Part shown: positions 16,801 to 37,989 of the stretch, one piece after another
Layout: every line of letters starts with the position of its first letter
Numbering within the stretch: position 1 is the first letter of the stretch
IMG/VR virus record: IMGVR_UViG_3300044681_000518
Location: 1-38,652 of that record
Source of the DNA: a virus
Reading direction: 5' to 3' (one strand)
Length of the DNA: 38,652 nucleotides
Translations under genes and position numbers: made by a program
Notes under the pieces: generated by a model
Databases searched by the model: none
What the model saw: only the letters and a program-made list of their open reading frames with translations
What the model was told of the DNA's origin: nothing

Positions 16801-17930
16801 TATCTAAGAATAATGCGTCGTCCCTAACGGCAAATGCACATTTATTGTTAGAGAATGGTACCACTTCCTCAGGACAAACCACAATTGGATTTAGACATGG
16901 TGGAACTGAAAAAGGTTCGATTAGAGTAGACTCATCGGGTAATCAGATATTCAACGCTGCGAGTGGTATTTTCTACTACAACAATGATTTTGGTGGAGAT
17001 TCACTAACATTTAGAAACGTTTCCACCACATTCATGACTGTTAGTAGTGGTACTGTTAGTTTCCCAAATACGGTTTCGGCAAGTATTAGTGGTAACGCAG
17101 CGTCGGCAACTAATTTAGGTTCACACTATACCGCAGATGATTGGTTTAGGGCAACTGCTGATAATAATATTGTTAAATTCTACGGTAACACAAGATCTAT
17201 CATATACCGTACTGACGGTGTAACGAATGAGCATGGTGGTGGAGGATATCCCCACATTTGGTACTATGGTGGTTCTGCTGATTCGAACAGAGTAATGATT
17301 ATTAACACAAGCGGTCAGTTGTGGATGAGCAACTACGGTTGGTTACACGATTATTTCCAAGCATCAGCTAGTGCAATCAATACAGGTAATATTGGTTCAC
17401 AATCAGTAAACTACGCAACAACCGCGGGATCCGCAACTTCAGCAACAACTGCGGGATATGCAACCACAGCAGGATCGGCAGATCAAATTGATGGTGTTGG
17501 ATTCAGAAACACAGGATCAAATGAAGGAATTAACGCTGACACCCTTAACAGTAATGGTATAACCTACTACACTGGTGGTGTAACAAACTTCTCAGGTAAC
17601 TCTACGGACGGTGCACTTTACTCACAAGCGTATAGTTCATCATGGCAACACCAAATTGCGGGTGATTATAGAAGTGGTCAAATTGCTGTTAGAGGTAAAA
17701 ATAATGGAACGTGGCAATCATGGAAGAAAGTCGCGTTGGTTAACACCGTTACCTTCACAAATGTTACATCAGTTTCATTTACTCACGGTTTAGGAACCGA
17801 TAATATAGTTGCTCAGGTATATGACGGTGGTGGTAGTTTATTCTTCCCGTCTGAGTTAAGATCTGCGGGTGGTATCGTTACTGTAACATTCGAAGTACCG
17901 AGATCAGGTAGATTAGTCGTAACGGGATAA
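4821..17930 (+). CDS. Giant repeat-built tail fibre / virion adhesin (4369 aa)
   Basis: One uninterrupted 13.1-kb frame. Layout by residue: 1-390 is an N-terminal region with two copies of LGSxxxxWRDxxL (93-107, 236-250), which recur as variants at 1563 and 2751. 393-1225 is a Thr/Ser/Asn-rich alpha-helical region of RLDSIET/NTQNNRL heptad-like repeats, with six copies of a TYATDxDV...LRG unit, interrupted near 825-913 by a beta domain. 1225-3600 has about 14 copies of a beta module (TTGATFNTGNGxIT...TVDIDGRY), four SGRTYIQD units and ten copies of AYGWGNHASAGYL. 3600-4369 includes FYDRDNSAYYLN (3913-3924), an ATTAGSA linker and a C-terminal THGLGTDNIVAQVYD domain (about 4305-4369). Such modules are typical of marine phage fibres. 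It probably forms a long trimeric fibre carrying receptor-binding parts. Attachment site and receptor are unknown. Confidence 0.9.
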   Translation: MNIFDPHITGSMSVSASAQIEGDLTVLGTIYGSAQISGQVDSATSASHAAQYLLTSSFEAYTGSLATTGSNTFIGDQTISGSLLPQGTLTHDLGSDGQRWRDIYLAGNTINLGGTKITKNDDGDVEVKDSSNNLKKIVASEIEIGSGDSKKILKIDNGKFKLMDSGDTKDEVAALSGSFTGSFVGDGSRLVNVPASAVQGLSLNRISDGEVTASIGNGKMTLNANFEPDLTDTRDLGSPTKQWRDLFLSSGSLYINGQQVISTTGNELRITTDEGESIKIIETASDTITLQTENGDITLTSSGNGNIELDAPIQIGAGKKILSSDGNSISFANGLVITGSIVLSGDVDGVDIARLKSDVDAILLGSSADKDSFAEIVGLINSVDTANDQAFAAYYTASNSRFASIESTTASFDGRLDSLEVKTGSIQSDITKLYSSASLAASSNANGNDRLNSIELVTASFDGRLDSIETETGSLSTRIGLLEDESGSIRTTFNSYTSSNNTTNTTQNNRLTSIETKTGSIEASISNINTLNNTQNSRLGSLETFTGSLDATFATDADVASLRGTLNSYTSSNNLRNGDQDGRLDSIESFTASIDETYATDSDVSDLRGDFNTYTSSNNTTNTNQNNRLTSIETTTSSFDGRLDSLETKSGSVDITLGNFGGQLSSLDGRLDSIETFTGSLDATYATDQDVTSLRGTLNTYTSSNDVRNNQQENRISSLEGFTASIDETYATDEDVNRFRGDFNTYTSSNNTTNNTQNNRLNALETKSGSVDTLNNTQNNRLNALEIATGSIITVNNTQNGRLNSIESATASLDGRLDIIEGGLEFTGSNVTVKGDLLVKGSTVSINSTEIDLGDNIISLNGTGAANGGIKVNDGPASGSLLWDGTNDYWVAGRENAEERIITDGPFHTYTSSLNSKINSIHSTTASFDGRLDSIESFTGSLDATYATDSDVTALRGTLNSYTSSNNNTNSTQNSRLSSLETTTGSIITVNNTQNGRLDSLESFTGSLDATYATDEDVTRLRGDFNSHTSSNNTTNTTQNNRLTSIETATGSIIGVNNDQNVRLTALEIKTGSLSGDISSLDGRVDSLETKTGSLTNDISILDGRVDSIEVKTGSFETSITNINTLNTTQNNRLTSIESTTGSIIGVNNNQNSRLDSLETTSGSIIGINNSQNLRLTSLETTTGSIISVNNTQNNRLTSIENTTGSIINLNNAQNGRLDAIEARTGSYLTEHPTINSANSSNNSGRTYIQDVLLDGNGHVTGLTTASETVVNTDRYVTGATFNNGTADLTLTRNDGNTVTVRLLDTLSDVTVTGGTYNSGTQTLVLTKSDGNTVSVSGFAVDTDVNWYTTGATFNTSTGIVQLSRNDGGTVSVDLDGRYLQSYTETDPIFTSSEAYNITNADTTNWDTAFGWGNHATRGYLTAHPTVGAAISSNNSGRTYIQDILVDSYGHITGLTTATETVVNTNYYVTGATFNTSNGVVTLTRNDGSTITVDIDGKYAEAGHNHDSAYVNVGGDTMTGSLTLPSMRMGNVILSASGDQNHIHFDGSALIPLTTTTASNASMGNSGYRWSNVYSGYGNFTNSVTANAFAKIGGTSSQFLMADGSVSTNPGWLTTESDPIFTASEAYNITNSDTTNWDTAFGWGDHSTRGYLTTYTNNYVNAVSWNSSDGVITIGRQGLNSLTLDIDGRYLNVSGGTITKTSTHVAQGSISASDAHLDLYNNWESDTDQKGSILTFTDNYYDGSTYRKTLRSAIKGGTDTTGNTADGYLEFYVDSAGANSPNLVLRLDRNKNANFYGTIITSSHGSSSNWKQAYDWGDHASAGYLTAYSETDTLATVTSRGSSTTSTIDITAANILRGFNGSGGSTVFHQLETYWNTNAASSTATLRFDVGLWRLWSGIYGGYVLNVRSNGNVEVVNNVTASSFIKTGGTSTQFLKADGSVDANTYLTTHPSVSAASSSNNSGRTYIQDILLDSFGHITGLTTATETVVNTDRYVTGATFNNNTADLTLTRNDGNTITVRLLDTLSDVTVTGGTYNSSNQTLTLTKSDGSTVNVNGFAVDTDVNWYTTGATFNTGNGIITGTLNNGSTWTVDIDGRFLTAESDTLATVTSRGSSTSTALTFNGALTLNNTLTMTSTSTQPFFLRGDSAGSNGLFRIQIDDVNDSFGTGARTFLGDGGIDVFIGTSNGSYTPNNTYIALNHSGEISMGAGSATKHLTLSTSGNLSVTGTLSASGYNKSNWDTAYGWGNHASAGYANYSHKYHTFSNGDEYYDSYGQNNNLRLFTENATFDNFRFRSYSNVEYFDGTNWVPWGQSLDTLFDGREETGFSLGHANSHFRFEINRSSGWPTTALFVIQSSWTDTNNHTCEVTLETWNGSAWVQKDNWTYSNFQRGINLHTTSQTHDGIGQMRVTINMDWTDASHNYYPLRRILFLSNFSGGATDMQPFTWEYNKNVTFSNQIYVSGGDSSQWNTAYGWGNHASAGYLTSYTDTNHYTTGATFNTSDGVITFTRNNGNTYTVDIDGKYLNLTGGSVAGTLNLTWPTTSTTSYELYFYNQSYHAKIYSTGGDLILTNGTGEKFRTTTAGVTVSGVVTATGGNSSNWNTAYGWGDHSTRGYLTSVPSPQSGDWWNDGFARVGTDGVMEIGKYIDFHDSDTTTSDYNFRITNSGDRLYFSGDIELDGGDIYINDSNTRLTEGNSNALRIQTNTGYVDIGSMNSSWVHFQADRSVYMWANGGLFSFDADVIPHSNNTKNLGSSGNRWATIYANGGDSTQWNTAYGWGNHASAGYLTTSTAANTYVKNYSHHTSTNADFNIARSSGLYTLDYGGQANLNSPDGSAWHGLITVRSGSVRQVQITIPYNSDNMYYRRGHNSNAEQWNDWVRLWDTNDFSDTNVSNWNTAYGWGNHASAGYLTSLPSHNHDGVYLPIGGKAADSNLLDGIDSTSFLRSDTSDSFTGDYLGFPTLSLGIANNNSSNGYNTYFRGSSSHFVLGLTDGNTLYLNYGNSSGSMRTYGTWYHGDTQILSSSRALSNVTGNISMFTNDSGYITSTASISGNAATASKWATARTITLSGDLNGSVSIDGSANVTLSAQVVNDSHTHDDRYFTETESDARYPLSRGGLGTSTTVGDTTGWGNNLAAGTYTRGYVGHGGQVIMSHDTGGSVGNVGIEVTYYGAMYVHTNVDSNQWVTKQIWTSENFTSTNISNWNTAYGWGNHASAGYVTHDYYTTGATFNSGNGIITFTRNDGGTYTVNIAATLTDVTVTGGTYNSSNQTLTLTKSNGTTVSVSGFAIDTDVNWYTTSASFNTGNGVITGTRNDGGTWTVDIDGRFVPYSGGNMTGNLNWGTTGTGLTWTMNTDGAYIIFYNTGDGDTDSRLEYGTSDNGNEYHRWMVSSIEEMTLKNDGLRVTNDIYMAGNIVATQAWVSSRGYLTSYTDTNYYTTGATFNTGNGVITGTLNNGSTWTVDIDGRYLQSYTEVDTLASVTARGSSTSSDIFLNNAAPTLYLQDTDNRSAMIHVNSNYFYILNGNANNSTSWAQQANSRWLFQGNLNNNDITFGGSGDFAGVVTATGGNSNNWNTAYGWGNHASAGYLTAHPTIAGASSNNSGRTYIQDVLTDANGHVTGLTTATETVVNTDTNYYVNSASFTSGILTLNRIGLGSLTVSLDGRYLQSESDTLSTVTARGNTTGSAIAIGGTLTINKSGTDSWIVFPAQTNDPGYIRHYESNNTSRMLFSVSDDSGTTDYFGFGYNGDDTRFVIYSNGNVYGKGTAEFDGRVYADDGLHVRGDWVRVDGSNGIYFNSYGGGWRMTGSSYVEMYGSKSLHMQNGSIDYVTQLHFNDNVRFYDEGNNQYLNYKWGNGGAGGIKFVDGDNSVQGYVYGSGTGSFGLLDSGGNWKVRVDGSNVEMYGSQYLTNVYANVFYDRDNSAYYLNPNQASNLATLTLNSPTSGTTVFNIQGTQGQLFSITDDLTGDLFSVSDASGVPIFNVNANSNVDIDGRLIISKNNASSLTANAHLLLENGTTSSGQTTIGFRHGGTEKGSIRVDSSGNQIFNAASGIFYYNNDFGGDSLTFRNVSTTFMTVSSGTVSFPNTVSASISGNAASATNLGSHYTADDWFRATADNNIVKFYGNTRSIIYRTDGVTNEHGGGGYPHIWYYGGSADSNRVMIINTSGQLWMSNYGWLHDYFQASASAINTGNIGSQSVNYATTAGSATSATTAGYATTAGSADQIDGVGFRNTGSNEGINADTLNSNGITYYTGGVTNFSGNSTDGALYSQAYSSSWQHQIAGDYRSGQIAVRGKNNGTWQSWKKVALVNTVTFTNVTSVSFTHGLGTDNIVAQVYDGGGSLFFPSELRSAGGIVTVTFEVPRSGRLVVTG
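6000..8490 (+). repeat. Heptad-like RLxSIExxTGS repeat region of the fibre
   Basis: About 830 residues are built from short helical units of the form (N)TQNxRLxSIExxTGS, mixed with six copies of a longer unit containing TYATDxDV and LRGTLNxYTSSNN. Spacing and hydrophobic pattern suggest a trimeric coiled coil forming a shaft. At DNA level, 7185-7229 and 7770-7814 are identical over 45 bases, so some units are recent copies. Confidence 0.75.
9033..15578 (+). repeat. Ten-copy NWNTAYGWGNHASAGYL module array in the fibre
   Basis: Ten copies of a 17-residue motif (consensus NWNTAYGWGNHASAGYL) start near 9033, 9725, 10246, 11533, 12220, 12615, 13130, 13498, 14421 and 15528. Three copies have the variant HxTRGYL, and the third has WKQAYDWGDH. 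Spacing is irregular (about 370 to 1290 bases) because different beta modules sit between them, so they look like punctuation between interchangeable domains. Exact DNA matches (11539-11579 = 13504-13544; 10314-10351 = 11127-11164) indicate recent duplication or gene conversion. Confidence 0.85.
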
Positions 17931-23305: not shown

Positions 23306-24304
23306 ATGAATTTAGCAATAAATGGATCATGTGCTAAAGGTTGTTCTTTCTGTTTCACAAAAGAGGATGCGAGATTAAAACACACTCTCGGTGAAATGTC
23401 AATTGAAAAGGTCGGGGAATTACTCGACCATTTTAATTTAGAGGGTGGTGACGAAGAGATTACCATCTTAGGTGGGGAACCGACACAACATTCAAACTTT
23501 ACGGGAATATTAGATTATATCTTTTCACGAGGTTTTAAAATAAATCTCGTTAGTAATCTTTTGTTTGGTCAGAAAACATTAGACTACATCACATCTAACA
23601 TTAAAAACATTAGATGGGTTCTACCAAATGGTGCGGAATTAAATGAGAAGAATAGAATAAATGTATTCCGTAAAAACTATCTATCACTATACTCTGCTTA
23701 TGCCAATACATGGGGTTTCGAAGATAATTCAAGACTGTTCATTGCCATTACACTTTCAAGTGATTGGAAGGAAAGACAGATGTATGAATACGTAAAATGG
23801 TTGTACCTCGAATTAGGGGGGAAGATAAATTCGTTTAGACTCGGATTAGACCTTACCGGTACTTACCTAATCAACAATAAAGAAATGGGTGAGGAGATCA
23901 CCAAAATCCTTAAATTCGGGCAATACAATAACGTCAAAATAGTTTCAGATTGTCAGGTCCCCCCATGTCTGTGGGAGGGTAAAACAAAAGAGTCTGTTAA
24001 CATGAACTCTTATGGGTTCGCCACTTTCAAACAAGGTAACTTAGAAACCATATGTGGTTACATGCCCTTAGACATATTCCCCGATGGCAGTTCTATACAC
24101 TGTTACCCCCTTCAAGACCAATTAAAAATTGACAATGTCTTGAATATCTCACCAAAAAACGGTATATTATCTCTCAGAGATGAGTTCGATAATTTATACA
24201 TAGAAAATCATAAAAATTACACCATACCCCAAGACTGTTTAGATTGTGTTTTTTATCTAACTGAATGTAACGGGATATGTGGTGGATGTTTACAAGGTGG
24301 ATAA
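23306..24304 (+). CDS. Radical SAM protein with SPASM-like C-terminal cysteines
   Basis: This 332-aa enzyme has the radical-SAM cluster motif Cx3Cx2C (C9, C13, C16 in CAKGCSFCF), which binds the [4Fe-4S] cluster that cleaves S-adenosylmethionine, and the GGEPT motif (56-60) that holds the SAM amino group. The C-terminal third has further cysteines: one in QVPPCLWE, two in CGYMPLDIFPDGSSIHC, and C311, C314, C321, C325, C328. This arrangement is typical of SPASM/twitch domains that hold auxiliary clusters. SPASM enzymes usually modify peptides or proteins, for example as RiPP maturases or sulfatase activators. No obvious precursor peptide is adjacent. It overlaps the U32-like gene by 8 bases if that gene starts at 24297. 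The substrate is unknown; a virion or host protein is conceivable. Confidence 0.85.
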   Translation: MNLAINGSCAKGCSFCFTKEDARLKHTLGEMSIEKVGELLDHFNLEGGDEEITILGGEPTQHSNFTGILDYIFSRGFKINLVSNLLFGQKTLDYITSNIKNIRWVLPNGAELNEKNRINVFRKNYLSLYSAYANTWGFEDNSRLFIAITLSSDWKERQMYEYVKWLYLELGGKINSFRLGLDLTGTYLINNKEMGEEITKILKFGQYNNVKIVSDCQVPPCLWEGKTKESVNMNSYGFATFKQGNLETICGYMPLDIFPDGSSIHCYPLQDQLKIDNVLNISPKNGILSLRDEFDNLYIENHKNYTIPQDCLDCVFYLTECNGICGGCLQGG

Positions 24305-25337
24305 AATATTTTCAATTCCTTTAAATCCCATGTTGAACGAAATAGCGTTCGAACATGTGTTCTATCCTTTTCTACAGAAGAACAAGGATTGGATCTACGA
24401 CATTTATTTTACTTGTAGGATTCCACCCTTCACCCAAGACGCAATGGGGTCTGTAATCCAAGAAAATGATCGAGATGTCGTATTTGAAAATGCGATGTTC
24501 ATACAAGAGTCGTTGGGTATTCGAGTTAGTGCTACTTTTAACAACTTCAATGTCTCACCTAAGTACGATAACTACAAATTATTTGTTGAGAACCTTAAAC
24601 CTCTTTATGAAAGGGGGTTAAGATCGATGACTATACCTCATGGACATTGGGTTGCTATGGGTCTTAAAGATCATTTCCCTGAAATGGAAATTAAGAATAC
24701 TATTTTAAGGAAGGTTGCCACCGCACAGGACTTTTGGTACAATGCGGAACAAGGATTCGATTACATTAATGTAGACCGTATTCTGATGAGGGACATAGAA
24801 GAACTCAAGAATATCAGACGAGCCCAACTAATGTTCCAACAGAAACACGGTAGGTATGTGAAGATTGCTCTACTAACCAATGAAGGTTGTTTGGGTAGAT
24901 GTCCTGTAATGGATGAACACTACTCCTATAATAACCTAAGACAACCTAATGAATTACCATACTTCCACCATGAGATATCCAAAGTAACTTGTGAGTATAA
25001 ATGGGAAAAAGAAATGGGTGCGTTCTTTTGGAAGACAGCAACAATCCCACCATTTAGAGAAGAGTTTGACGAATACTTAAATCACGTGGACATCTTTAAG
25101 ATGCACGGCCGAGATAGTTTCGACAGACTAAACGAAACAATGGAAATAGTGGACTCTTATGCTAAGGGCATGGATGTACTATCTGAAACGTCTCAAACTT
25201 ATTTAGATGGCGTACCCCATGAAGAACTTAGAGGGTGGAGAAATAAAATTAAGAAGTGTAAATTCCAATGTTGGGATTGTAACTATTGTGATATAGTTGC
25301 TGAACACAAAAAGAAACGTATTAATGGACTTAGCTAA
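24297..25337 (+). CDS. Peptidase U32-like (TIM-barrel, Fe-S) protein
   Basis: The protein opens with KIFSIPLNP, typical of the first beta strand of U32/collagenase-like TIM barrels. It carries the family hallmark NEGCLGRCPVMDEHY, with C198 and C202 (numbered from the GTG at 24297). More cysteines follow in VTCEY and the C-terminal QCWDCNYC, probably enough to hold an Fe-S cluster. Characterised U32 relatives (RlhA, TrhP, UbiU/V) hydroxylate RNA bases or ubiquinone precursors, using prephenate or O2, rather than act as peptidases. Starts available are GTG at 24279, 24282 or 24297; I chose 24297 because it gives MDKIFSIP, overlaps the upstream stop by 8 bases and wastes no residues (346 aa). 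Pairing with a radical-SAM enzyme suggests one modification pathway. Confidence 0.7.
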   Translation: MDKIFSIPLNPMLNEIAFEHVFYPFLQKNKDWIYDIYFTCRIPPFTQDAMGSVIQENDRDVVFENAMFIQESLGIRVSATFNNFNVSPKYDNYKLFVENLKPLYERGLRSMTIPHGHWVAMGLKDHFPEMEIKNTILRKVATAQDFWYNAEQGFDYINVDRILMRDIEELKNIRRAQLMFQQKHGRYVKIALLTNEGCLGRCPVMDEHYSYNNLRQPNELPYFHHEISKVTCEYKWEKEMGAFFWKTATIPPFREEFDEYLNHVDIFKMHGRDSFDRLNETMEIVDSYAKGMDVLSETSQTYLDGVPHEELRGWRNKIKKCKFQCWDCNYCDIVAEHKKKRINGLS

Positions 25338-25986
25338 ACATATTGAAGACTCTATTGAGTGGGGTGGTTTAGAAGTCTCCAAACTCAACCAAGACATTCT
25401 TAATATCCATGGGATTACCAGTAATAAAGTCAGATGTTTTCTAAATAACATTTGTTCGATTGGTGGGACTTACTTGGAAATCGGTGTATTCAGAGGAGCA
25501 ACATTTTGTTCCGCCATCTATGGTAATGATGTTTATGCGATTGGAATCGACAACTTTGCATCACCAAACCTAATGCCGATGGGTGTTAGTCAGAAATTGG
25601 CGGCATATCTAAAACAAAGGTTAGATGTTCCACCACAAGAAGATTTTTTAAACAATGTTAAACGGTTCGGAAATACCGAACAGATCGATGTTTATAAAGG
25701 TGATTACACAACATTCGATTACACCCAACTACCTAAGTTGGATATTGTATTTTATGATGGGGACACTCGTTTCCACGATCAATACGTCACTTTAAAGAAG
25801 ATTATACCACAATTCTCAGAGAGAACTATCCTAATCATGGATGATTGGAATTGGAATAGTGGTGCTATTGATCAAATCATTGAAGAAGAGGGTTTAGTAG
25901 TAACCCACAGAAGAGAAGTTTACACTAATGGTGAAGATATGGAATCCTATTGGAATGGATTAGGTATTTTCGTTATTGAGTCTTGA
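25324..25986 (+). CDS. Class I SAM-dependent methyltransferase
   Basis: This 220-aa protein has a Rossmann-type SAM-binding motif I, YLEIGVFRGATF (about 50-61), an acidic end of strand 2 in AIGIDNF, and FYDGDTRFHDQY near strand 4, a pattern seen in Methyltransf_24-type O-methyltransferases. LIMDDWNW further on resembles the strand-5 segment. An upstream TTG at 25297 would extend the frame by 9 residues, but ATG 25324 sits in the usual overlap with the preceding stop (14 bases), so I prefer it. It is the last gene before a new promoter, so it probably completes the transcript with the radical-SAM and U32-like enzymes. The substrate is unknown. Confidence 0.75.
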   Translation: MDLAKHIEDSIEWGGLEVSKLNQDILNIHGITSNKVRCFLNNICSIGGTYLEIGVFRGATFCSAIYGNDVYAIGIDNFASPNLMPMGVSQKLAAYLKQRLDVPPQEDFLNNVKRFGNTEQIDVYKGDYTTFDYTQLPKLDIVFYDGDTRFHDQYVTLKKIIPQFSERTILIMDDWNWNSGAIDQIIEEEGLVVTHRREVYTNGEDMESYWNGLGIFVIES

Positions 25987-26013
25987 TTAACCCCCTTATT
26001 TTTCGTATCTTTT
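25983..26013 (+). promoter_or_regulatory. Bacteroidetes-type promoter, TTG-N20-TATCTTTT
   Basis: TTG at 25983-25985 overlaps the end of the methyltransferase gene (its last sense codon and stop), and TATCTTTT is at 26006-26013, with exactly 20 bases between. The ATG of the outer-membrane protein is 42 bases downstream, leaving an AT-rich leader. Known Flavobacterium promoters have the same architecture, so the host sigma factor should read it without phage help. Confidence 0.6.
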
Positions 26014-26055
26014 ATCTGTACGTTTAGTACATAATTTTTCATTAAATATAATACA

Positions 26056-26982
26056 ATGAACAATGAAAACACGCCATCATTTTGGTTGGCAAAGTCGTCA
26101 AACACGATCATGAAGTTCGTACTTGGCAAAACAATGTTAGTTTTATTTTTGGTGGTCCTAAGTATTTCCAATTCATACGGACAATACACGGGACGAGCCC
26201 TAAACAATGGTGAACAACCACAAGATTCAGTACGTAGTCTTAAGGAGGTTATTGTTACCGCAAGAAAGTACTCTCAGTTTGAGTTAGTTGGTGAGAACCA
26301 ACAACCCGCTTGGACACTCGTCAGAAAGTTCCCTTCAACAAGAACATATATTATGGTTCCAAAAGGTACTGTTATGTATGAGAAATGGTTTGATATGAGA
26401 ACCCCTCGAAATGGTGACCCAACCGAAGTAAGAATGAGAGATGAGTTCGCATTCGGTCTCGCCAAAAGACTTGAATTGGATCTTTACATGCACACAGTTT
26501 ACAAGTACCAAGGTGAACAATCTTCATTTGGTTTCAGAGGATTCTCATGGGAAGTAAGGTATGCACTTGCTGATTGGGGTAAAATCCCTGGTAACCCAAC
26601 ACTCTACTTTGAACATAAACTATTAAATAATAAGAGAATGGGTATCGAACCCAAACTCTTATTGGGTGATAGAATCGGTAAACGAGGTATATGGGGGGTC
26701 AATCTAATTTATGAGGGTTATCTTTCAAAATATAGAGAGTTCCAAGAAAGAGAATACGCATATACCGCATCTTATGGTCAAGTCATCAATGATGATCTCA
26801 CCATTGGGGTATCAAATATGTTTAGACACAATGATGTGGATGGAACTAACGAGTGGTACTTAGGTCCCGCTCTTCAATATAGATTTAGTGGTAATGCCTA
26901 TATCAACTTTGAATTACTACCAGGTCTTAATGATGACGCAAAGAAATTTAGAAACACAATTATATTCGGATGGAGATTTTAA
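26056..26982 (+). CDS. Outer-membrane beta-barrel protein with signal peptide and TonB-box-like motif
   Basis: This 308-aa protein has a hydrophobic signal core (21-38, VLGKTMLVLFLVVLSISN) ending SYG|Q, a common flavobacterial cleavage pattern. LKEVIVTAR (62-70) follows, close to the TonB-box/plug-start consensus of Bacteroidetes receptors, but no plug domain follows. From about 115 to the end, alternating strands (FAFGLAKRLELDLYMHTVY, TLYFEHKLL, WGVNLIYEGYL, YINFELLPG) end in a terminal Phe (IIFGWRF), the classic barrel sorting signal. The start could instead be Met19 (26110), giving a more usual signal peptide. The stop lies 13 bases inside the next gene, a permease. An outer-membrane barrel is rare in a phage genome. 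It may be a porin, a specific channel or a surface/receptor modifier; the function is unproven. Confidence 0.72.
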   Translation: MNNENTPSFWLAKSSNTIMKFVLGKTMLVLFLVVLSISNSYGQYTGRALNNGEQPQDSVRSLKEVIVTARKYSQFELVGENQQPAWTLVRKFPSTRTYIMVPKGTVMYEKWFDMRTPRNGDPTEVRMRDEFAFGLAKRLELDLYMHTVYKYQGEQSSFGFRGFSWEVRYALADWGKIPGNPTLYFEHKLLNNKRMGIEPKLLLGDRIGKRGIWGVNLIYEGYLSKYREFQEREYAYTASYGQVINDDLTIGVSNMFRHNDVDGTNEWYLGPALQYRFSGNAYINFELLPGLNDDAKKFRNTIIFGWRF

Positions 26983-27974
26983 TTAAAGGTCAACACTTTT
27001 TATTATATCTAACATTCATCATGTTCGTGACGGGTATCCTTAAAGACAAAGGGTACCTGTCCGACGTGTTTCGTTGGATAGCGAGAAATGTAAAGTCAAA
27101 GAAAATGGTAGTCTTCTTTGTATCCTTATTCGGGGGAGTACTACCCATACCAGGTCGTGTTGCACTATCGGCGAGTATGTTGAATTCAATAGCGCCTGTA
27201 GATAGAAAGAAAAGAAAGACGTTTGGTATAATTGATTACTTAGCTACACATCACTATTACCTATGGTCACCACTTGAGAAAACAGTAATCATACCCATGG
27301 CGGTGATTGGATTCACCTACAAGGAGTTTATGACCCTCGTGTGGCCACTACTTCTTATTAGTGTTCTTTATATTGGGTATTATATTATGACACTAAAGGA
27401 TGATGAGATTGATTTGGAAATAACTGAAGAACCGACAGATTGGAGAAACATTGTATTTGTTGTGATCCCGTTCTTAACCACAATCTTAGTATCGTGTTTT
27501 ACCGATTATTATTTCCTCACATTCTTAACCTTTACAATATACCTAACCCATTACTCAAGTAGTTGGAAGAAGTTATATGATTATGTAAACGGTGAGTTAT
27601 TACTCGTTGTTGCGGGAGTAATCATCTTAGGTAACATTGCGGGTTATTACTATGAGGATATCGAAACATATATAAAAAGTTATACTGAACCCGAACATAT
27701 TATTGTTGTGTCAGTACTCGGATTTCTGTCCTCATTCTTATTGGGATCATCCGCAAAATATGCGAGTATTGTTAGTTTACTAACAGTTGTATTTGGTGTG
27801 GAATACTTCGTTCTATTCTTTACTTTAGAATATTCGGGATATTTAATATCACCATCACATAAATGTCTACCAATTGGACAGAAGTATTTTCACACGGGGT
27901 TTTTAACCTATTTGAAAGCACTTATAATTTGGATTGGATTTATGATCACTTATGCTTTAATAACGATCATTTAG
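26970..27974 (+). CDS. Polytopic inner-membrane permease, resembles DUF401 / ion-transporter superfamily
   Basis: This 334-aa protein has about 8-9 hydrophobic segments: near 9-24, 44-60, 92-125 (probably two), 157-190, 211-229, 244-262, 263-285 and 310-333. The re-entrant-looking GGVLPIPGRVALSASM (about 54-69) and the SGYLISPSHKCLPI segment near the C-terminus match what I know of DUF401 permeases (usually about 400 aa), related to citrate/gluconate-type transporters. Between them THHYYLWSPLEKTVIIP fits the conserved loop. It starts 13 bases inside the outer-membrane gene, so the two should be translationally coupled. Together they could form a route across both membranes for an anion or organic acid. 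The substrate cannot be inferred, and the family match is by eye. Confidence 0.65.
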   Translation: MEILIKGQHFLLYLTFIMFVTGILKDKGYLSDVFRWIARNVKSKKMVVFFVSLFGGVLPIPGRVALSASMLNSIAPVDRKKRKTFGIIDYLATHHYYLWSPLEKTVIIPMAVIGFTYKEFMTLVWPLLLISVLYIGYYIMTLKDDEIDLEITEEPTDWRNIVFVVIPFLTTILVSCFTDYYFLTFLTFTIYLTHYSSSWKKLYDYVNGELLLVVAGVIILGNIAGYYYEDIETYIKSYTEPEHIIVVSVLGFLSSFLLGSSAKYASIVSLLTVVFGVEYFVLFFTLEYSGYLISPSHKCLPIGQKYFHTGFLTYLKALIIWIGFMITYALITII

Positions 27975-27976
27975 AC

Positions 27977-28007
27977 TTGACAATTAAATAAATAATAATT
28001 ATATTTT
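27977..28007 (+). promoter_or_regulatory. Bacteroidetes-type promoter, TTG-N20-TATATTTT
   Basis: TTG (27977-27979) begins three bases after the permease stop. TATATTTT (28000-28007) follows after exactly 20 bases, and the ATG of the next gene is 17 bases further, after an A-rich leader typical of Bacteroidetes starts. It has the same geometry as five other elements in the window. Confidence 0.55.
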
Positions 28008-28024: not shown

Positions 28025-28471
28025 ATGACAACGAATTTAACTATTGACGAAATCTTACAACTCGAAGCCGAGATCAACGGGTTTACCACACCTCAGGGTC
28101 ATCAGGTTTACGAGGGTTTTAGTAAACAACCATTATCTATTCTTTTGAAATACGAACTTTCAGAATTCTCTAAGAAATTAAGAGAAGAAAGAGAGACCGT
28201 AGAAGGGTTAAGAAATGAATTGATCACGAAGTACGGCACGGAGCAGGAAGATGGATCAATTCAGATTAGCCCGACCATCGAAGAGACAAAAGGTAAAAAG
28301 ACTGAGACAGTTGAGAATCCTAAGTATACAAAATTCATCGAGGAATATGGAAGTCTCCTTAACAAGAAGATTGAATTAGATCATCCCGTAATCACCAAAG
28401 ATGATTTAAAAGATGCCGGTAAAACTAAGGATCAGTACAACATCTTATTTAGATTAGTGAGTAAGGATTAA
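28025..28471 (+). CDS. Small acidic helical protein (148 aa), unidentified
   Basis: The product is acidic and mostly helical: LSEFSKKLREERETVEGLRN (about 45-64), then a beta-like insert (EEDGSIQISPTIEE type) and ENPKYTKFIEEYGSLLNKKI (about 106-125). The pattern of two helices around a GSIQISP hairpin resembles small phage assembly proteins (I recall DUF1617, unverified). It has its own host-type promoter. Its TAA at 28469-28471 overlaps by 4 bases the stop codon of the convergent glycosyltransferase gene on the other strand, so no terminator separates the two converging transcripts. The function is unknown. Confidence 0.7.
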   Translation: MTTNLTIDEILQLEAEINGFTTPQGHQVYEGFSKQPLSILLKYELSEFSKKLREERETVEGLRNELITKYGTEQEDGSIQISPTIEETKGKKTETVENPKYTKFIEEYGSLLNKKIELDHPVITKDDLKDAGKTKDQYNILFRLVSKD

Positions 28472-29565
28472 ACCTTATTCCTAATCTCGATTAACAAATT
28501 TCCGATTTGATATTCCCCTACATCGTAGTGTGGAATTGACAATCGGATTTTGTTTATTGTATATATGTCCTCGTCAGTTATAGGTGATGTCTCATACACC
28601 ATGACATCAACCACATCGGTTAGGATGAATTTAGATCTTAAATCGTAGTTGGTATTTACCTGTTCATTTTTAATATACTCCTCAGGTATCCTCCCCAAAT
28701 CAATCTTATTGAAGTAGGGTTCTAAATTATAGAGTCTACTATCACTTCGAGTGGTAAGTCCCATCATAAAGGTTTTAAACCTGAAGATGTCGTCCTCCCA
28801 ATACCTCATCTCATTGAACACAGGGATTGTGGTACCCCATTTTCTGATGAAGTTTCTAATGTTGTTGTGTTCACTAAGTCTACTTTCTTCAGACCTAAGA
28901 ACTCTACTAGTTTTTGAAACGAAATGATATACAACCGCACATTCGGTGGTCATCAGTTTATATCCCTTAAGTTTAGCACGTATTAAAAAGTCATCGTCCT
29001 CACAAAAGAAAGGGTCGAAAGAAAATCCATCAAATAAACCAATATCAAAAAACGAAGATCTCATACCCGAAATAAAGAAGGTACCGCCTTCAACCATCGT
29101 TTTATTTTGTTTAACTTTTTCTACATATTGGTTAAACAAAACATAATTAAAATCAAAGAAGTTTGAACCTAAATCAAGGATAACCTTACCAGGTCTTTTA
29201 TGTCCCTTAAAAATCGGAGGTTCAATTGTGGTATATGTAACCATTGTCTTTTCATCGATCAATTCTGAGAGATTCTCGAGAAAGTTCTCCCCTATGATCA
29301 TATCATTATGAATCAACACTAATTTCTCAGTATCAACCAATTTAATCGCTGCGTTGTAATTGTCTGAAAAGGTTAGTTTATCATCGTCGTGGATGTAGGA
29401 AAGGTAATCATCATCCAATGACTCTAACCATTCTAATGTACCATCATTAGAACCACCACTACTTATTACGAATGGTGCTTCGGGATAGATATCACGAATT
29501 CTTTTATAACAATCTTTGGTGTAATCTAAGTTATTGTACACCGCTAACACTAATGATATATCCAT
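28468..29565 (-). CDS. Glycosyltransferase family 2 (GT-A)
   Basis: A 365-aa GT-A enzyme, last gene of the minus-strand sugar operon. The N-terminus SLVLAVYNNLDYTKDCYKRI and SSGGSNDGTLEWL form the nucleotide-sugar-binding half. LIHNDMIIG (about 93-101) holds the Asp equivalent to the DxD motif. FFCEDDDFLIRAKLKGYKL (about 193-211) is the ED-type catalytic-base region of family 2 enzymes. About 130 residues follow of unclear role. Its ATG shares one base with the stop of the upstream gene (TAATG). The lack of membrane segments suggests a cytoplasmic enzyme using a soluble or peripheral acceptor. Donor and acceptor are unknown. Confidence 0.85.
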   Translation of the reverse strand: MDISLVLAVYNNLDYTKDCYKRIRDIYPEAPFVISSGGSNDGTLEWLESLDDDYLSYIHDDDKLTFSDNYNAAIKLVDTEKLVLIHNDMIIGENFLENLSELIDEKTMVTYTTIEPPIFKGHKRPGKVILDLGSNFFDFNYVLFNQYVEKVKQNKTMVEGGTFFISGMRSSFFDIGLFDGFSFDPFFCEDDDFLIRAKLKGYKLMTTECAVVYHFVSKTSRVLRSEESRLSEHNNIRNFIRKWGTTIPVFNEMRYWEDDIFRFKTFMMGLTTRSDSRLYNLEPYFNKIDLGRIPEEYIKNEQVNTNYDLRSKFILTDVVDVMVYETSPITDEDIYTINKIRLSIPHYDVGEYQIGNLLIEIRNKV

Positions 29566-30200
29566 TACCTATTTCTTTGTAATTCTTCGTAAAGGTTGTT
29601 CTGTTTCTCCTGTCTATCAATTGTCTTCGGATGATGAAGTGCGTATGCCTCATCAGGAGGTAAATCAGTGTAGGTGTTATATCCAATTAAACGTTCGTGT
29701 ACCTTACCATACCACTTAATTTTTTCGTTCTTCTTCCAAATCCTTGTTTGATAGTCGGGAAAATTCACCCAACCTCTTTTATCCACATTCCATCTCCACT
29801 TATTGATATGTTCTTCTGTTAAACCTTCAACAGTGTTTACTCGAGAAACCAAAAATACCTCATTTTTTGGGTTGTGTTTTAAAATCTCAGGTAGTGATGT
29901 TATTAAGTTGACATGTGGTAATTCGTCCGCATCTAATTGAAAGATGTAATCACCACTACAATAATTGGTTAATTGGTTTTTCCAATCCGCAAAGTCACCC
30001 TCAAAGTAACCTCTCCATGTTTGGATGTTAGGATATTTATTGAACTTAATCAACCAATCAATAACCTCTTTGTCACCATTTCTTTGATCAAATAGAATGA
30101 CAATTTCATCTTGAGGTCTCTTGTTTTCTTTTAAAAACAAAAGTAGTTTCTGTATCTCTACAAACTCATTACATACCGTTATAGCATAACTTATTTTCAT
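29565..30200 (-). CDS. Glycosyltransferase family 2-like (GT-A), compact
   Basis: This 211-aa protein is a short GT-A enzyme. It begins ISYAITVCNEFVEIQKLL, has ILFDQRNGDKEVIDWL and DFADWKNQLTNYC segments, and carries the DxD motif in FQLDADELP (about 91-99). RGWVNFPDYQTRIWKK and KVHERLIG follow, as in lipopolysaccharide-type GT2 proteins that act near SPS/WaaE-like folds. It overlaps the epimerase gene by 4 bases (ATGA), and its stop overlaps the start of the next glycosyltransferase. No signal peptide is seen. It is likely one step of building an oligosaccharide with its four operon partners. Confidence 0.82.
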   Translation of the reverse strand: MKISYAITVCNEFVEIQKLLLFLKENKRPQDEIVILFDQRNGDKEVIDWLIKFNKYPNIQTWRGYFEGDFADWKNQLTNYCSGDYIFQLDADELPHVNLITSLPEILKHNPKNEVFLVSRVNTVEGLTEEHINKWRWNVDKRGWVNFPDYQTRIWKKNEKIKWYGKVHERLIGYNTYTDLPPDEAYALHHPKTIDRQEKQNNLYEELQRNR

Positions 30201-31048
30201 AGACTAAGAATATACTCTTTTAATCTGTTTTGTGGTGACCAACCTAATCTATCCAAACTATCGTCATTTTCTCTTTTAGTAACTCTGTAATTACCTGATT
30301 GGTCGGGTACATTAACCTTATTAATATGTGGGAATCGTTCCTTAAAGAAACCAAATACCTCATTAATTGAGTAGTTGGTACCTGTACCCAATTCCCATGC
30401 GTCTTCATGTTTTTCGTTGGACATACCTACTCGATACAATCCATCAACAATGTCTATTACGTGAGTGAAATCTCTACGTTGTTCCCCATCACCGACAATG
30501 GTTATGTCTTCACCATCTCTCACTTGTTTTCTCCAAATACCGATGACTGCCGCCCACGTACCGTCAACCAACTCACCGGGTCCGTATACATTATAGAAAC
30601 GACAGATTTCCGCATTAAGGTTATAGACTTTACGATATAATTTAAAGATCTCTTCACCAATGTGTTTGTAACATGCATAAGGTGACTGATATGGGTCGTG
30701 CCATCTGGAAGATGAACCCGCATAGACAACTTTAATATTATGTGTTTTACAATAATCAGCAAGAATTTGAGTACAAACGGTATTAGATCTAAATGTTTCT
30801 TTAGGATTATTAAAGGATGGTTGGATCCTACTTAAAGCCGCGAGATGGTAACACAAATCTATCTTACCTATTTTAAGTCTTGGTAAAACTTCTAAATCAG
30901 CATAGTGATACTCACATCCATCAACCTCATATTCTTTGAGTCCTGTAGATAAATTATCAATAGAACACACTGTGTGTCCCTCTTCTAAAAGTCTTTTAAT
31001 TAGGTTACTACCTATGAATCCATTCCCCCCTGTTACTAATATTCTCAT
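30197..31048 (-). CDS. NAD-dependent nucleotide-sugar epimerase/dehydratase (extended SDR)
   Basis: This 283-aa enzyme has the SDR dinucleotide-binding motif TGGNGFIGSN (6-15), the acidic residue for NAD ribose in SIDNLSTG, YHLAALSR around 67-74, and the catalytic Tyr-Lys pair Y124-x3-K128 with preceding Ser in AGSSS. RFYNVYGPGE (about 147-156) is typical of UDP-sugar epimerases such as GalE and UDP-glucuronate 4-epimerases. It is somewhat shorter than these (about 310-340 aa). It probably supplies the activated sugar for the four glycosyltransferases of the operon. It overlaps both neighbours by 4 bases. Confidence 0.88.
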   Translation of the reverse strand: MRILVTGGNGFIGSNLIKRLLEEGHTVCSIDNLSTGLKEYEVDGCEYHYADLEVLPRLKIGKIDLCYHLAALSRIQPSFNNPKETFRSNTVCTQILADYCKTHNIKVVYAGSSSRWHDPYQSPYACYKHIGEEIFKLYRKVYNLNAEICRFYNVYGPGELVDGTWAAVIGIWRKQVRDGEDITIVGDGEQRRDFTHVIDIVDGLYRVGMSNEKHEDAWELGTGTNYSINEVFGFFKERFPHINKVNVPDQSGNYRVTKRENDDSLDRLGWSPQNRLKEYILSL

Positions 31049-32304
31049 TTTTCTAATTTGGTTAACTCAGGCAGGACAAGTTTGGTCTTTTTGGGTTTCT
31101 CGACTAATAGAGGTTCCAACAGTTTCCTGAACTTATCTGTTATTGTTTCTAGTGAGAAACTGTCTCTATTTTCTAGTCTTAACGATTCAGATCTCTCTAA
31201 AAAGTCTTCGTATTTTTCATTAACAATCTTTAAAACCTCAACGACTTCATTGTAATTGGCGGTGAACCATTTAGAGGAGGTGAGGATAAAATCGTCTGCC
31301 GCACTCTCATGAACTTGTGTTAGTTTACCACCTAATAGGACCGACTTATTCATTGGTAGGAAGTCTTTGTGTCCTGACCAATTAGATGCGATGATGGGTT
31401 TACCTGTCATGCTAAACTCTAATAACGGTCTACCAAATCCCTCACCTTTGGTTAAACTCACCATTGATTTAACTTTAGGGTGGTTGTACAAACCATTCAT
31501 CTCATCATCAGTTAATTGACCAAAGAGAAGATAGATGGGTGGTGGGTTATCATAACTTCTGGTTATTCGTTGGATTTTTTGTCTAAGGTATTCTCTTTGT
31601 TTAATCGAGAATGTTGCCGACGATGTTTTCAGAATTAGTGCGGGATTAGTCTCCACACCATTAAATGATTCACAGAAACATTTAATCAACATACCAACAT
31701 CCTTTCTATCCTGACCAACGTCACCCTTTAACCAATGACCCACAAACAGAAATGCAAAGTCCTCTTTAATGTCTAATTTAAAATTAGACTCGTTGTTGTT
31801 GTATATAGATAGATCCACACCTTCATGGAGTATTTCAATCGGGGTGGTTATTTTATGTTGTTTAATTAATTTACCGGTAACCCTATCATTTTCGTTATAA
31901 ACGGTTTGTAATAAAACATCACGTGAGAATGTAGATGTGGTTATAACCATATCCATCCTATTAATACCGTCTATCCACGATTTAGGTGCTGCGGTCGTCT
32001 CAATACCCGCCGTAACACCAATATTGAATTTACCTTTTCTTTGGAATTCATTGGGTACGGTCACTTCCATATAAATGTCGGGTGTCTCACTTAAACGAGT
32101 AACGATACTGTCCTCAATCCATTTGTGAAATAGATTACCCTCAACATCCAATGCGGTCATTGGTGTGTTACCCCATACAGAACTATCAATCATAATATTG
32201 AAGAGTTCCATGTCGTAAAGGGATTTTAAAAGATCTCTTGAGTGTGAACCATAACCACTTAAAGTTTTTACTGGTCCTCTAAATAATAGTGTTGGTTTAC
32301 TCAT
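31045..32304 (-). CDS. Glycosyltransferase family 4-like (GT-B)
   Basis: A 419-aa GT-B enzyme. The N-terminal domain starts with LLFRGPVKTLSGYGSHSRDL, a glycine-rich acceptor-side loop. The C-terminal donor domain has FLFVGHWLKGDVGQDRKDV and the signature GEGFGRPLLEFSMTGKPIIAS (about 285-305), where the first Glu corresponds to the E of the E-x7-E motif that binds the donor. The end is lysine-rich. The gene shares one base with the stop of the upstream GT-B gene (TAATG). It probably acts on the same glycan as its neighbours; sugar specificity cannot be read from the sequence. Confidence 0.85.
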   Translation of the reverse strand: MSKPTLLFRGPVKTLSGYGSHSRDLLKSLYDMELFNIMIDSSVWGNTPMTALDVEGNLFHKWIEDSIVTRLSETPDIYMEVTVPNEFQRKGKFNIGVTAGIETTAAPKSWIDGINRMDMVITTSTFSRDVLLQTVYNENDRVTGKLIKQHKITTPIEILHEGVDLSIYNNNESNFKLDIKEDFAFLFVGHWLKGDVGQDRKDVGMLIKCFCESFNGVETNPALILKTSSATFSIKQREYLRQKIQRITRSYDNPPPIYLLFGQLTDDEMNGLYNHPKVKSMVSLTKGEGFGRPLLEFSMTGKPIIASNWSGHKDFLPMNKSVLLGGKLTQVHESAADDFILTSSKWFTANYNEVVEVLKIVNEKYEDFLERSESLRLENRDSFSLETITDKFRKLLEPLLVEKPKKTKLVLPELTKLEK

Positions 32305-33683
32305 TATACTATTTTATATAAACTAAATTTATTCTTAGGTTTCCACTTTTTAAATGTGGTTTCAATACCTCCAATAATACTATCACACATAAGTTTACTT
32401 GAGAAATTCTTCTCAACGTATTCTCTACCTAATAGACCAACTCTCTTTCTTTCTTCTCTTCCCATTTCATACATTTCTTTGATCGCATCGACCACGTCAT
32501 AGTGATTGATTCTATCATCGAATATGTAAGGGGTACTAGGTGATCCATTTAAGGTGATTGATGCCGACCATACAGGTGCACACCATTTACCCCATGTTAA
32601 TTTCTCAGGTAGTTCTCTTTCATTATGTAAAGACCCTAATTTGATATAATCCTCAGGACCAATTAGTTTACCATTTGATTTAAACCCACACTGATCTTGT
32701 AAACCACCCGTCACATTTACAATGATCGGAGTACCTGACATAAGAGATTCTGCGGTGGTCAGACCAAACCCTTCGTTGTTGGCAATATTGATAGTACAAT
32801 CCACCATATTATAGATTCTATTCAACCTATCCTGTTCGAATTTGTCATTGGTAAACTTTACATCGTAATCAGGACATAACTCATTTACAACCGCCACTAA
32901 ATCAGTTCCATTCTTATCGATTGATGCTGTGTGCATTAATAGAAGACACTTCTCCGATTTTTCCTTTGGTAGGGTATCACAGAACATCTTATATGAATAG
33001 ATTACATCGGAGGGTTGTTTCCTTTTAATATTTCTATTGTTGTAGAAGAGTATAAAATCATATTCTTTATTACCGTGTATGAATTTCTTCATTTCCTCAT
33101 CTTCACCTTCTAAAGGTTTGAACGTTTCAGTGTTTATACCGTGAGGTACATAACCAATCTGCCAATCTTTAAGTGGTTGATGAGTCATTTCTCTGGTAGT
33201 TTTACCGACTCTATGCACAATTCCGAAAGTTTGTTTAGAGATACAACCTAACCAATCACATGACTCATAATAATCCCTATTATAGTGGGGGTCAGGTAGG
33301 TCATCCCATATATGGTAGTATAGGATTGGGACCTGTTGTCTTATCTCTTGTTCATTGTCATATAACCACTGCCAATAATGAGGGTCAGTAAAGTGAAGTA
33401 TAGCATCAGGTTTCTCCTTTTCAATAATCTGACGTAATCTAAAAATATCACCATAACCATTGTTAGGATATATTTTAACATTTGCATCCTTTACTCCGGT
33501 CTTAGTTCTTACATCATCATTTAAATCGACAATCTTCCCATATTCGGGGTGTTTTATAGCAGCACCTAACTGAACCCAATCATATTTGTGTACAGTACCT
33601 GTTACTATTTCTCTGGACATTGTTGCTACCCCCGATGTCATTCTCATATCATCAGAAAGTAGTAGTATCTTTTTTTTACCCAT
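32304..33683 (-). CDS. Glycosyltransferase family 4-like (GT-B)
   Basis: A 459-aa GT-B enzyme. It opens KKILLLSDDMRMTSGVATM, with the GV-type loop of GT4 enzymes. DAILHFTDPHYWQWLYD and ILYYHIWDDLP follow in the N-terminal domain. In the C-terminal domain FILFYNNRNIKRKQP marks the donor-domain entry, and NNEGFGLTTAESLMSGTPII (about 300-319) is the E-x7-E donor-binding signature. The two GT-B proteins of this operon are only distantly similar, so they probably add different residues. It is coupled to the RHH-like gene upstream by one shared base. Confidence 0.87.
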   Translation of the reverse strand: MGKKKILLLSDDMRMTSGVATMSREIVTGTVHKYDWVQLGAAIKHPEYGKIVDLNDDVRTKTGVKDANVKIYPNNGYGDIFRLRQIIEKEKPDAILHFTDPHYWQWLYDNEQEIRQQVPILYYHIWDDLPDPHYNRDYYESCDWLGCISKQTFGIVHRVGKTTREMTHQPLKDWQIGYVPHGINTETFKPLEGEDEEMKKFIHGNKEYDFILFYNNRNIKRKQPSDVIYSYKMFCDTLPKEKSEKCLLLMHTASIDKNGTDLVAVVNELCPDYDVKFTNDKFEQDRLNRIYNMVDCTINIANNEGFGLTTAESLMSGTPIIVNVTGGLQDQCGFKSNGKLIGPEDYIKLGSLHNERELPEKLTWGKWCAPVWSASITLNGSPSTPYIFDDRINHYDVVDAIKEMYEMGREERKRVGLLGREYVEKNFSSKLMCDSIIGGIETTFKKWKPKNKFSLYKIV

Positions 33684-33886
33684 TAGAATCTTGATCCGCT
33701 AACCGCTAGTACATCGTGGTTATCAATCAATTTCTTGAAATCATCGTTAGTGTTGTATAAGTCTAAAGACCTATTAACTAATTTTTGGAAGTTAATACCT
33801 TCGTTTTCTATTGTACTAATTTTGAACTGTTTGTAAGTATCCTCAATAACATTCACAGTGGTCAATTTAGTGTTTGCTTTCTTCAT
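33683..33886 (-). CDS. Small ribbon-helix-helix-like protein, first gene of the sugar operon
   Basis: A 67-aa protein with the size and pattern of ribbon-helix-helix DNA-binding proteins: a short strand (KLTTVNVIE), a first helix (DTYKQFKISTIE) and a second (NFQKLVNRSLDLY). This is a by-eye fold guess. As the first gene of a five-enzyme glycan operon it could be an autoregulator. A 7-bp inverted repeat just upstream would be a suitable operator. It overlaps the GT-B gene by one base. An alternative is an unrelated small phage protein. Confidence 0.6.
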   Translation of the reverse strand: MKKANTKLTTVNVIEDTYKQFKISTIENEGINFQKLVNRSLDLYNTNDDFKKLIDNHDVLAVSGSRF

Positions 33887-36763: not shown

Positions 36764-36908
36764 GACATATGTGCATAATAATGTGTGGCATTTAATTCCA
36801 ACCATACTAATAACGACCGATGGACCGATATATCTAAGTATCGATTTTGTTTGGTTAAAGTGGGGGATTAGTTTAATCGTAAAAGACGAATTAAAGAAGT
36901 ATGAATAA
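36750..36908 (+). CDS. Small protein (52 aa) bridging acetyltransferase and thyA
   Basis: A 53-codon frame overlaps the end of the acetyltransferase by 14 bases and the start of thymidylate synthase by 8 bases, so it spans the gap exactly, as expected of a translationally coupled gene. The product is MKRFETYVHNNVWHLIPTIL..., with two aromatic and hydrophobic stretches (HLIPTILI; IYLSIDFVWLKWGISLIV) ending in a charged tail. Proteins with a similar SFVWLKWG core occur, as I recall, in many marine T4-like phages, function unknown. It may be a small membrane-associated protein. Confidence 0.7.
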   Translation: MKRFETYVHNNVWHLIPTILITTDGPIYLSIDFVWLKWGISLIVKDELKKYE

Positions 36909-37989
36909 TTTAGATAAACAATATCAAACTCTTTTGGAGACTATATTAGAGTATGGTGTTGAAAAGGGTGACAGAACGGGTACCGGAACAAAGTCCATAT
37001 TTGGTTACACTATTAGACATAATATGTCAGATGGGTTTCCCCTACTCACCACTAAGAAGATGGCGGTCAAAACAATGATGACCGAACTGAAGTGGTTCTT
37101 AAAAGGAGATACCAACATCAAATATTTGGTGGATAATGGTTGTAACATTTGGAATGGTGATGCATATAAGAATTATCAACAAGAAGGCCCATATAGTGTA
37201 GAAGTTGAAAATGAAGAAAATACTTATAGGCAATTAACACAAGAAGAATTTATCAACGAAATCAAAACCGATGATGAGTTTGCTAAAGAATGGGGTGAGT
37301 TAGGTCCAATCTATGGTAAACAATGGAGGGAGTGGAAAACACAAGTATCAATACCTACAACATTAAAAGTTGATGATGGTGACGATAGTGAACCTTTATT
37401 TGTAAGAGGTACGAGATATATTGACCAAATTGAAAATCTAATCAACGACCTTAAAACAAATCCTGATAGTAGGAGATTAATGGTTTCTGCGTGGAATGTT
37501 GGTGATATGGGTGATATGGTTCTTCCACCATGTCACTATGGGTTCCAAGTTTATACGAGAGAGTTAAATTTAGATGAGCGTATTGATATTCACAATGGGT
37601 CGAGTGATCCACTAAATCGTTCTTCTGATTACTTTCATGAACACATGGATATCTACGGTGTCCCTCGTAGATCTATCTCATTAATGTGGAATCAGAGATC
37701 TGTTGACACATTTTTAGGCCTACCATTTAACATAGCATCTTATGGGATGTTATTGAGTTTAATTGCGAAAGAGGTTAATATGGTCCCCGAAGAATTAATA
37801 GGAAACTTGGGAGACACCCACCTATATCAAAACCATATTGAACATGCGGAGGAACAACTAACAAGAGAACCATTTCCACACTTACCAAAATTAAAATTGG
37901 GTAACGTAGATATATTGAATGGAGAGTTTGATTATGAGATTTTATATTATCATTCTCACCCAACAATTAAGGCACCCTTAAGTAATTAA
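36901..37989 (+). CDS. thyA: Thymidylate synthase (ThyA type)
   Basis: Converts dUMP to dTMP with methylene-tetrahydrofolate, supplying thymidine for phage replication. The 362 aa carry all key residues: R25 in DRTGTGT (phosphate), the ELKWFLKGDTNI segment, catalytic C211 in LPPCHYGFQ, RRSISLMWNQRSVDTFLG and N277 in LPFNIASYG. Asn at that last position marks a true thymidylate synthase; dCMP hydroxymethylases have Asp. It is about 100 residues longer than E. coli ThyA because of insertions near 97-130, 147-172 and 221-258. These are in loops, so activity should be kept. It is last in the acetyltransferase operon and runs 12 bases into the convergent gene. Confidence 0.96.
   Translation: MNNLDKQYQTLLETILEYGVEKGDRTGTGTKSIFGYTIRHNMSDGFPLLTTKKMAVKTMMTELKWFLKGDTNIKYLVDNGCNIWNGDAYKNYQQEGPYSVEVENEENTYRQLTQEEFINEIKTDDEFAKEWGELGPIYGKQWREWKTQVSIPTTLKVDDGDDSEPLFVRGTRYIDQIENLINDLKTNPDSRRLMVSAWNVGDMGDMVLPPCHYGFQVYTRELNLDERIDIHNGSSDPLNRSSDYFHEHMDIYGVPRRSISLMWNQRSVDTFLGLPFNIASYGMLLSLIAKEVNMVPEELIGNLGDTHLYQNHIEHAEEQLTREPFPHLPKLKLGNVDILNGEFDYEILYYHSHPTIKAPLSN

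Follow-up and report, generated by a model that had tools for sequence, protein, structure and literature searches.

Overlapping genes for an outer-membrane barrel and an inner-membrane permease in a viral genome

The DNA analysed here (the window) is a stretch of 38,652 nt from an IMG/VR viral record, and two overlapping plus-strand genes lie in it at 26056-27974. The upstream gene (26056-26982) encodes an outer-membrane channel of 308 aa with a signal peptide and 12 strands, for which Met-19 (26110) is an alternative start, and the downstream gene (26970-27974) encodes a DUF401-family inner-membrane permease of 334 aa with a DASS/INDY-like anion-transporter fold. A first-pass annotation had reported that the two ORFs overlap by 13 bases, and we found both ORFs in place, with the shared stretch at 26970-26982 on the plus strand. 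The signal peptide and the C-terminal barrel signal that it had assigned to the upstream product were also recovered, as a hydrophobic N-terminal segment ending in SNSYGQ and a C-terminus reading TIIFGWRF. Among the matches listed, the same 13-nt overlap with a downstream permease gene occurs in 47 of about 70 distinct barrels, while other barrels sit 8 to 111 nt downstream of the permease. In both genes dN (0.06-0.20) is far below dS (1.6-2.2), which indicates purifying selection. The recurrence of the overlap, together with this selection, indicates that the pairing goes beyond chance. No phage/host junction was found near 25.9 or 28 kb; related viral contigs have the same genes on either side, and contigs related to the window carry phage neck and tail genes.

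A promoter-like site of the Bacteroidota -33/-7 type, TTG-N20-TATCTTT, matches by pattern at 25983-26013 on the plus strand, and sites of the same layout occupy the corresponding gap in L005, L061, L008 and L009. Another pattern match (27977-28007, plus strand) precedes the next gene, which starts at 28025; since this promoter-like site belongs to the following gene, it sets the downstream limit of the pair, and the barrel and permease genes form one unit. The pattern has eight copies on the plus strand compared with about six expected, i.e. it occurs at chance frequency, and in five of the eight (25983, 27977, 34142, 35208 and 36279) the distance to a downstream start codon is under 80 nt. 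Because these five directly precede genes, the promoter type is phage-wide. The site at 25983 had been annotated as the pair's own host-type promoter; it is present, but it is not specific to the pair, and we downgraded it accordingly. Judging from the promoter type, the hosts of this phage are likely Bacteroidota. Immediately 3′ of the promoter lies an inverted repeat, TGTACGTTTAGTACA (26017-26031, plus strand), a possible operator or 5′ hairpin; at this position L061 has TGTGTCATTTGACACA, with both arms altered together.

The barrel has a TonB-box-like motif ahead of a predicted lumen segment

An AlphaFold model of the barrel was built from an alignment of 26 relatives. Its overall pLDDT was 79.8, with values mostly exceeding 85 across the barrel, and the 12 strands at residues 106-307 form a closed barrel, within the 10-14 strands that had been expected. 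FapF was the best match among solved structures (Z 22.6, 2.5 Å over 220 residues, among them the plug region), and 4rl8, a COG4313 channel, matched with Z 20.7 and 2.9 Å over 215 residues; PDB families missing from the list of structure matches are not counted as excluded. The score against Pfam PF13557 was sub-threshold, at 17 bits compared with a cut-off of 22 bits, and the closest relatives scored 19-20 bits. A conserved segment at residues 73-105 (26272-26370, plus strand) is predicted to lie inside the barrel lumen and aligned to the plug region of FapF, in which the alignment of the window barrel begins at residue 73.

A linker with predicted disorder connects the signal peptide to the lumen segment, and its one conserved island is the TonB-box-like motif LKEVIVTARK (residues 62-71; 26239-26268, plus strand). 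The TonB boxes of FhuA and BtuB read DTITVTA and DTLVVTA, respectively, and the motif of the barrel relatives takes the form LxEVxVTA. It was found in all 68 distinct barrels with a readable N-terminus among the matches listed, in some of them immediately after the signal peptide. A test pattern, [EDPST][VIFT]x[VI][TSEV], which was defined after inspecting the alignment, matched in 12 of 12 barrel clusters (75% identity), while shuffled linkers match it with a probability of 0.20 each. By this post hoc pattern, the barrel appears to carry a TonB box near its mature N-terminus, and we infer from the motif that it may be coupled to TonB.

The window barrel differs from TonB-dependent transporters, whose hallmarks are the Plug domain PF07715 and a barrel of 22 strands: it is modelled with 12 strands and has no Pfam match to PF07715 or PF00593. 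The COG4313 channel (Pput2725, PDB 4rl8) has 12 strands and part of its N-terminus in the lumen (PMC4493636), both of which it shares with the window barrel. However, the paper on that channel makes no mention of TonB, whereas here the lumen segment comes after a TonB-box-like motif; moreover, the window barrel falls below the PF13557 cut-off and its gene is paired with a permease gene. FapF (PDB 5o65), a trimer with a long periplasmic coiled coil, exports amyloid and also holds part of its N-terminus in the lumen (PMC5557850). Common to FapF and the window barrel are the 12 strands and a plug inserted from the periplasmic side, but in place of the coiled coil the latter has a short linker bearing the TonB-like motif.

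The permease belongs to the DUF401 family and is modelled with a DASS-like fold

The permease had been described as resembling DUF401, and this was borne out by a score of 45.2 bits against PF04165 (cut-off 24, E 1.1e-11) together with a full-length transporter fold. It matched PHROG_14035 at 1.4e-83, and its score against CitMHS (25.5 bits) was below the cut-off of 31.9. A model built from 54 sequences (pLDDT 91, pTM 0.86) showed the anion-transporter fold over the whole chain, as had been anticipated, with tied matches to NaDC1 (Z 24.6), LaINDY (24.4), Pho90 (24.0) and AtDiT1 (23.9), each over about 330 of the 334 residues. The NaDC1 alignment covered 328 of the 334 residues, and the two inverted repeats and re-entrant hairpins of DASS proteins were found. 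SNT (Ser-Asn-Thr) motifs are absent, the hairpin tips being VLPIPG and GSSAK, and we therefore regard the permease as DASS-like in fold without filing it as DASS. It shares its sequence family with DUF401 (PF04165)/TIGR00529 and its fold with the DASS proteins NaDC1, LaINDY and Pho90, but falls in a distinct phage clade, PHROG_14035, of about 330 aa.

The invariant residues of the permease cluster in GGVLPIPGR and GSSAK, and in HHYYLWSPLEK and SPSHKC. On the model, the former would be the two hairpin tips and the latter two broken helices, at the positions of the DASS substrate and cation sites. Given that the invariant residues at these putative sites include Arg, His and Lys (R63, H94, H95, K263, H297 and K298), an anionic substrate would fit. 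Searching the sequences of solved structures with profiles of the barrel, the permease, the TonB-receptor-like partner described below and phrog_1458 gave nothing useful.

The permease is paired with exchangeable outer-membrane partners

IMG/VR was scanned with permease queries (109, 165 and 276 matches), a barrel query (105) and a TonB-receptor-like partner query (23), and pairs and neighbours were counted among the matches listed, with at most 80 loci per scan. The adjacent barrel and permease genes recur in other phages. The permeases fell into 81 clusters at 90% identity, 70 of them with both flanks, and among these matches 40 of the 70 adjoin a gene from one of five outer-membrane families. 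The other 30, mostly from cyanophages, have no recognised outer-membrane neighbour, which suggests that the permease can work without one. Within eight clusters more than one kind of partner was present. In permease-centred loci among the matches listed, the outer-membrane families occurred 111 times adjacent and once elsewhere, a count in which loci were not de-duplicated and one profile had been trained on adjacent genes; the single non-adjacent match was a mis-included oxygenase-like sequence, i.e. false. One contig among the matches listed, the 119-kb L307, has the barrel without the permease. The premise of the first-pass annotation that phages rarely encode outer-membrane barrels proved too strong: BFVD holds many from uncultured caudoviruses, and aquatic phages encode such barrels more often than had been assumed.

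One partner exchange is seen between L086 and L087. The two share 95% identity along 7.1 kb up to and including the permease, differ in the partner gene that comes next, and match again at 92% beyond it. The partner is a TonB-receptor-like protein of 584 aa in L086 and the 12-stranded barrel in L087. In L036/L050 and L020/L042, the swap lies between a shared signal-peptide region and the permease start. The 590-aa TonB-receptor-like partner matches Plug only below threshold. In L139 and L130, a classic TonB-dependent receptor (PF00593 2e-43, Plug 1e-12), closest to siderophore receptors, comes next to the permease, 9 nt downstream of it. Among the matches listed, OMP_b-brl proteins also adjoin the permease, in 16 loci counted before clustering, and L101 and L077 have as neighbours a Gcw_chp protein and a secreted protein of 187 aa, respectively. 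Some partners are barrels of about 200 aa without an evident TonB box, perhaps too narrow for channels.

Several further genes occur at these loci. A pilin-like protein (GFTLIELLVVIAIIS) takes the place of the barrel directly before the permease at L074:5093-5998, and a membrane protein of 110-116 aa with no Pfam match lies directly upstream of the permease or barrel at L079:12-362, L047:4732-5064 and L080:5628-5978. A gene of the Asp/Asn beta-hydroxylase type overlaps the 3′ end of the permease gene at L020:6960-7568 and L047:6897-7571, and genes for 2OG-Fe(II) oxygenases or halogenases adjoin the permease in many other phages.

In three contigs, L317 (5122-6744), L318 (920-2554) and L314, permease and barrel form a single ORF. 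The junction comes after the last permease helix and reads TEAKA|DVIEEVIVEG or SAVNA|EEKEQIVEEVVVV, that is, an AxA-like site and then the TonB box. The L317 and L318 fusions are 63% identical; pN is much lower than pS in each half and over the junction as well, a sign of purifying selection. T4-type neck and tail genes are present on the L317 and L314 contigs. DASS proteins have their C-terminal end on the outside, which would fit export of the barrel from such a fusion. Judged from the junction sequences, the last helix of the permease could serve as the signal peptide of the barrel, and signal peptidase probably cleaves there. Taken together with the overlap and the exchange of partners, these observations make it nearly certain that barrel and permease function jointly, and very likely that their role is transport.

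Distribution of the barrel and the permease

The permease is encoded by the isolated cyanophages S-H25 and S-CAM4 and by the assembled genome metaG-MbCM1, in each case without a recognised outer-membrane partner, which points to the permease as the constant part of the system. The barrel protein was found in none of the isolated phages and plasmids searched. Among the bacterial genomes searched, only one, G001, had a relative of the permease (L085, 31%). A distant barrel homologue was present in 5 of 379 genomes of the same phylum, including G001 itself, where it lies on another contig (L354). In three of the five, the corresponding lumen segment is preceded by a motif of the type PIQVKG or PIEVKG. 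At L351:6821-10858 and L352:2557-9265, the bacterial homologue is encoded near a PBP_like_2 protein, a histidine kinase and a LuxR-type response regulator; the PBP_like_2 (PstS-type) neighbours give a weak hint of an oxyanion substrate.

A proposed TonB-gated uptake route and its alternatives

The first-pass annotation had suggested a route for an anion across the cell envelope, and the 12-stranded barrel, the DUF401 permease with its anion-transporter fold and the recurrence of the pair in phages all support it. The direction had been left open; we favour uptake, since the barrel has a TonB-box motif and is swapped for TonB receptors, and from these two observations import is the direction we infer. 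We propose, as a reading that is somewhat better than an even bet, a phage-borne, TonB-gated uptake route for a small anion across both membranes. The 12-stranded barrel would be the outer-membrane channel, with its lumen plugged by the N-terminal segment, and the TonB box before the plug would allow host TonB-ExbBD to pull the plug open. A small solute or a chelate, anionic in either case, would enter the periplasm through the opened barrel, and the DUF401 permease, acting as an elevator-type, DASS-like secondary transporter, would then bring it into the infected cell. The gene overlap may serve a matched ratio of barrel to permease, and the fused precursor of some phages would make the ratio strict, with signal peptidase I freeing the barrel. 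With true TonB-dependent transporters of the siderophore type (FhuA, PiuA), such as those adjoining the L139 and L130 permeases, the barrel would share the proposed energy source. As for the substrate, our guess is a phosphate-like oxyanion or a small di- or tricarboxylate, about equally likely, with iron or another metal chelate less likely than either.

The structural likeness to FapF, a secretion channel and the best match of the barrel, could also mean that, during infection, a FapF- or autotransporter-like barrel works with the permease to remove a metabolite, a waste anion or a signal from the cell, and exchangers such as LaINDY exist among transporters of the DASS fold. We consider such export improbable, as both the TonB-box motif and the swapping of partners with TonB-dependent receptors speak for an inward direction, and no periplasmic bridge or exported-substrate gene recurs next to the pair. 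Alternatively, the barrel might change the cell surface, either by blocking or replacing a phage receptor or by tying up host TonB through its TonB box and so keeping out rival phages that depend on TonB, with the permease as a passenger. TonB-dependent receptors are common phage receptors, the barrel is placed in the outer membrane by its model and has a TonB-like motif, and L307 carries it without the permease. Yet a surface role leaves the permease, the kept overlap, the fusions and the partner swaps unexplained, and unrelated outer-membrane proteins adjoin the same permease; superinfection exclusion thus explains less than the uptake route, and we hold a surface role to be unlikely.

It is likewise doubtful that function resides in the permease, with the outer-membrane genes being unconnected cargo inserted at one shared site close to tail genes. 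Many cyanophages do have the permease without a recognised outer-membrane neighbour, and phrog_1458 and oxygenase genes cluster at this spot as well. Against this stand the near-exclusive adjacency of the outer-membrane matches noted above, and the fusion ORFs and fixed 13-nt overlap, which require joint selection. The TonB-gated uptake route is the reading we retain, and the pair, present in many water-dwelling phages, is probably a joint, TonB-powered uptake system for a small charged nutrient.

To our knowledge, the phage auxiliary transporters known so far are single inner-membrane or periplasmic parts. SusC-like or putative TonB-receptor genes have been described in Mar_Mega_1 (PMC9723777) and pelagiphage Skadi-1 (PMC10504331), and the receptor of Mar_Mega_1 was proposed to raise uptake (PMC9723777); in the parts of these two reports that were covered, no matched permease of the inner membrane, no small barrel and no fusion is described. 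A full-text search with incomplete journal coverage returned phage TonB-receptor genes and no description of a barrel/permease pair. If the uptake route is correct, aquatic phages widely carry a matched route across both membranes, of which the outer-membrane part is swapped like a cassette while the permease stays constant. If the barrel is opened by TonB, receptors of 22 strands with a folded plug are not the only proteins gated in this way. In the fused versions, joint function could be tested directly, as could the use of a transmembrane helix as a signal peptide. More tentatively, and with somewhat less than even confidence in the reading as a whole, small TonB-gated 12-stranded channels with a short N-terminal plug may constitute a new class, which phages spread and diversified as part of a self-contained two-membrane importer, sometimes made as a polyprotein whose last permease helix doubles as the channel signal peptide.

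Other genes in the window

Just upstream of the pair, at 23306-25986, a radical-SAM gene is followed by a cysteine-rich protein with the phrog_1458 N-domain and a methyltransferase in overlapping frames. Genes of the phrog_1458 type were present in 37 of 71 representative permease loci among the matches listed, mostly 0.2-2 kb upstream, and the two domains are encoded by a single gene in cyanophages. A peptidase-U32-type Fe-S protein was considered for the upstream phrog_1458 protein and dropped, there being no PF01136 match. One ORF of 4369 aa spans 4821-17930, and the thymidylate synthase at 36901-37989 (362 aa) aligns with the full length of a 266-position profile and has about 90 residues more. 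A Nol-like carbamoyltransferase gene (1620-3293) and a block of genes for glycosyltransferases and epimerases on the minus strand (28468-33886) make up a surface-sugar or virion-modification set.
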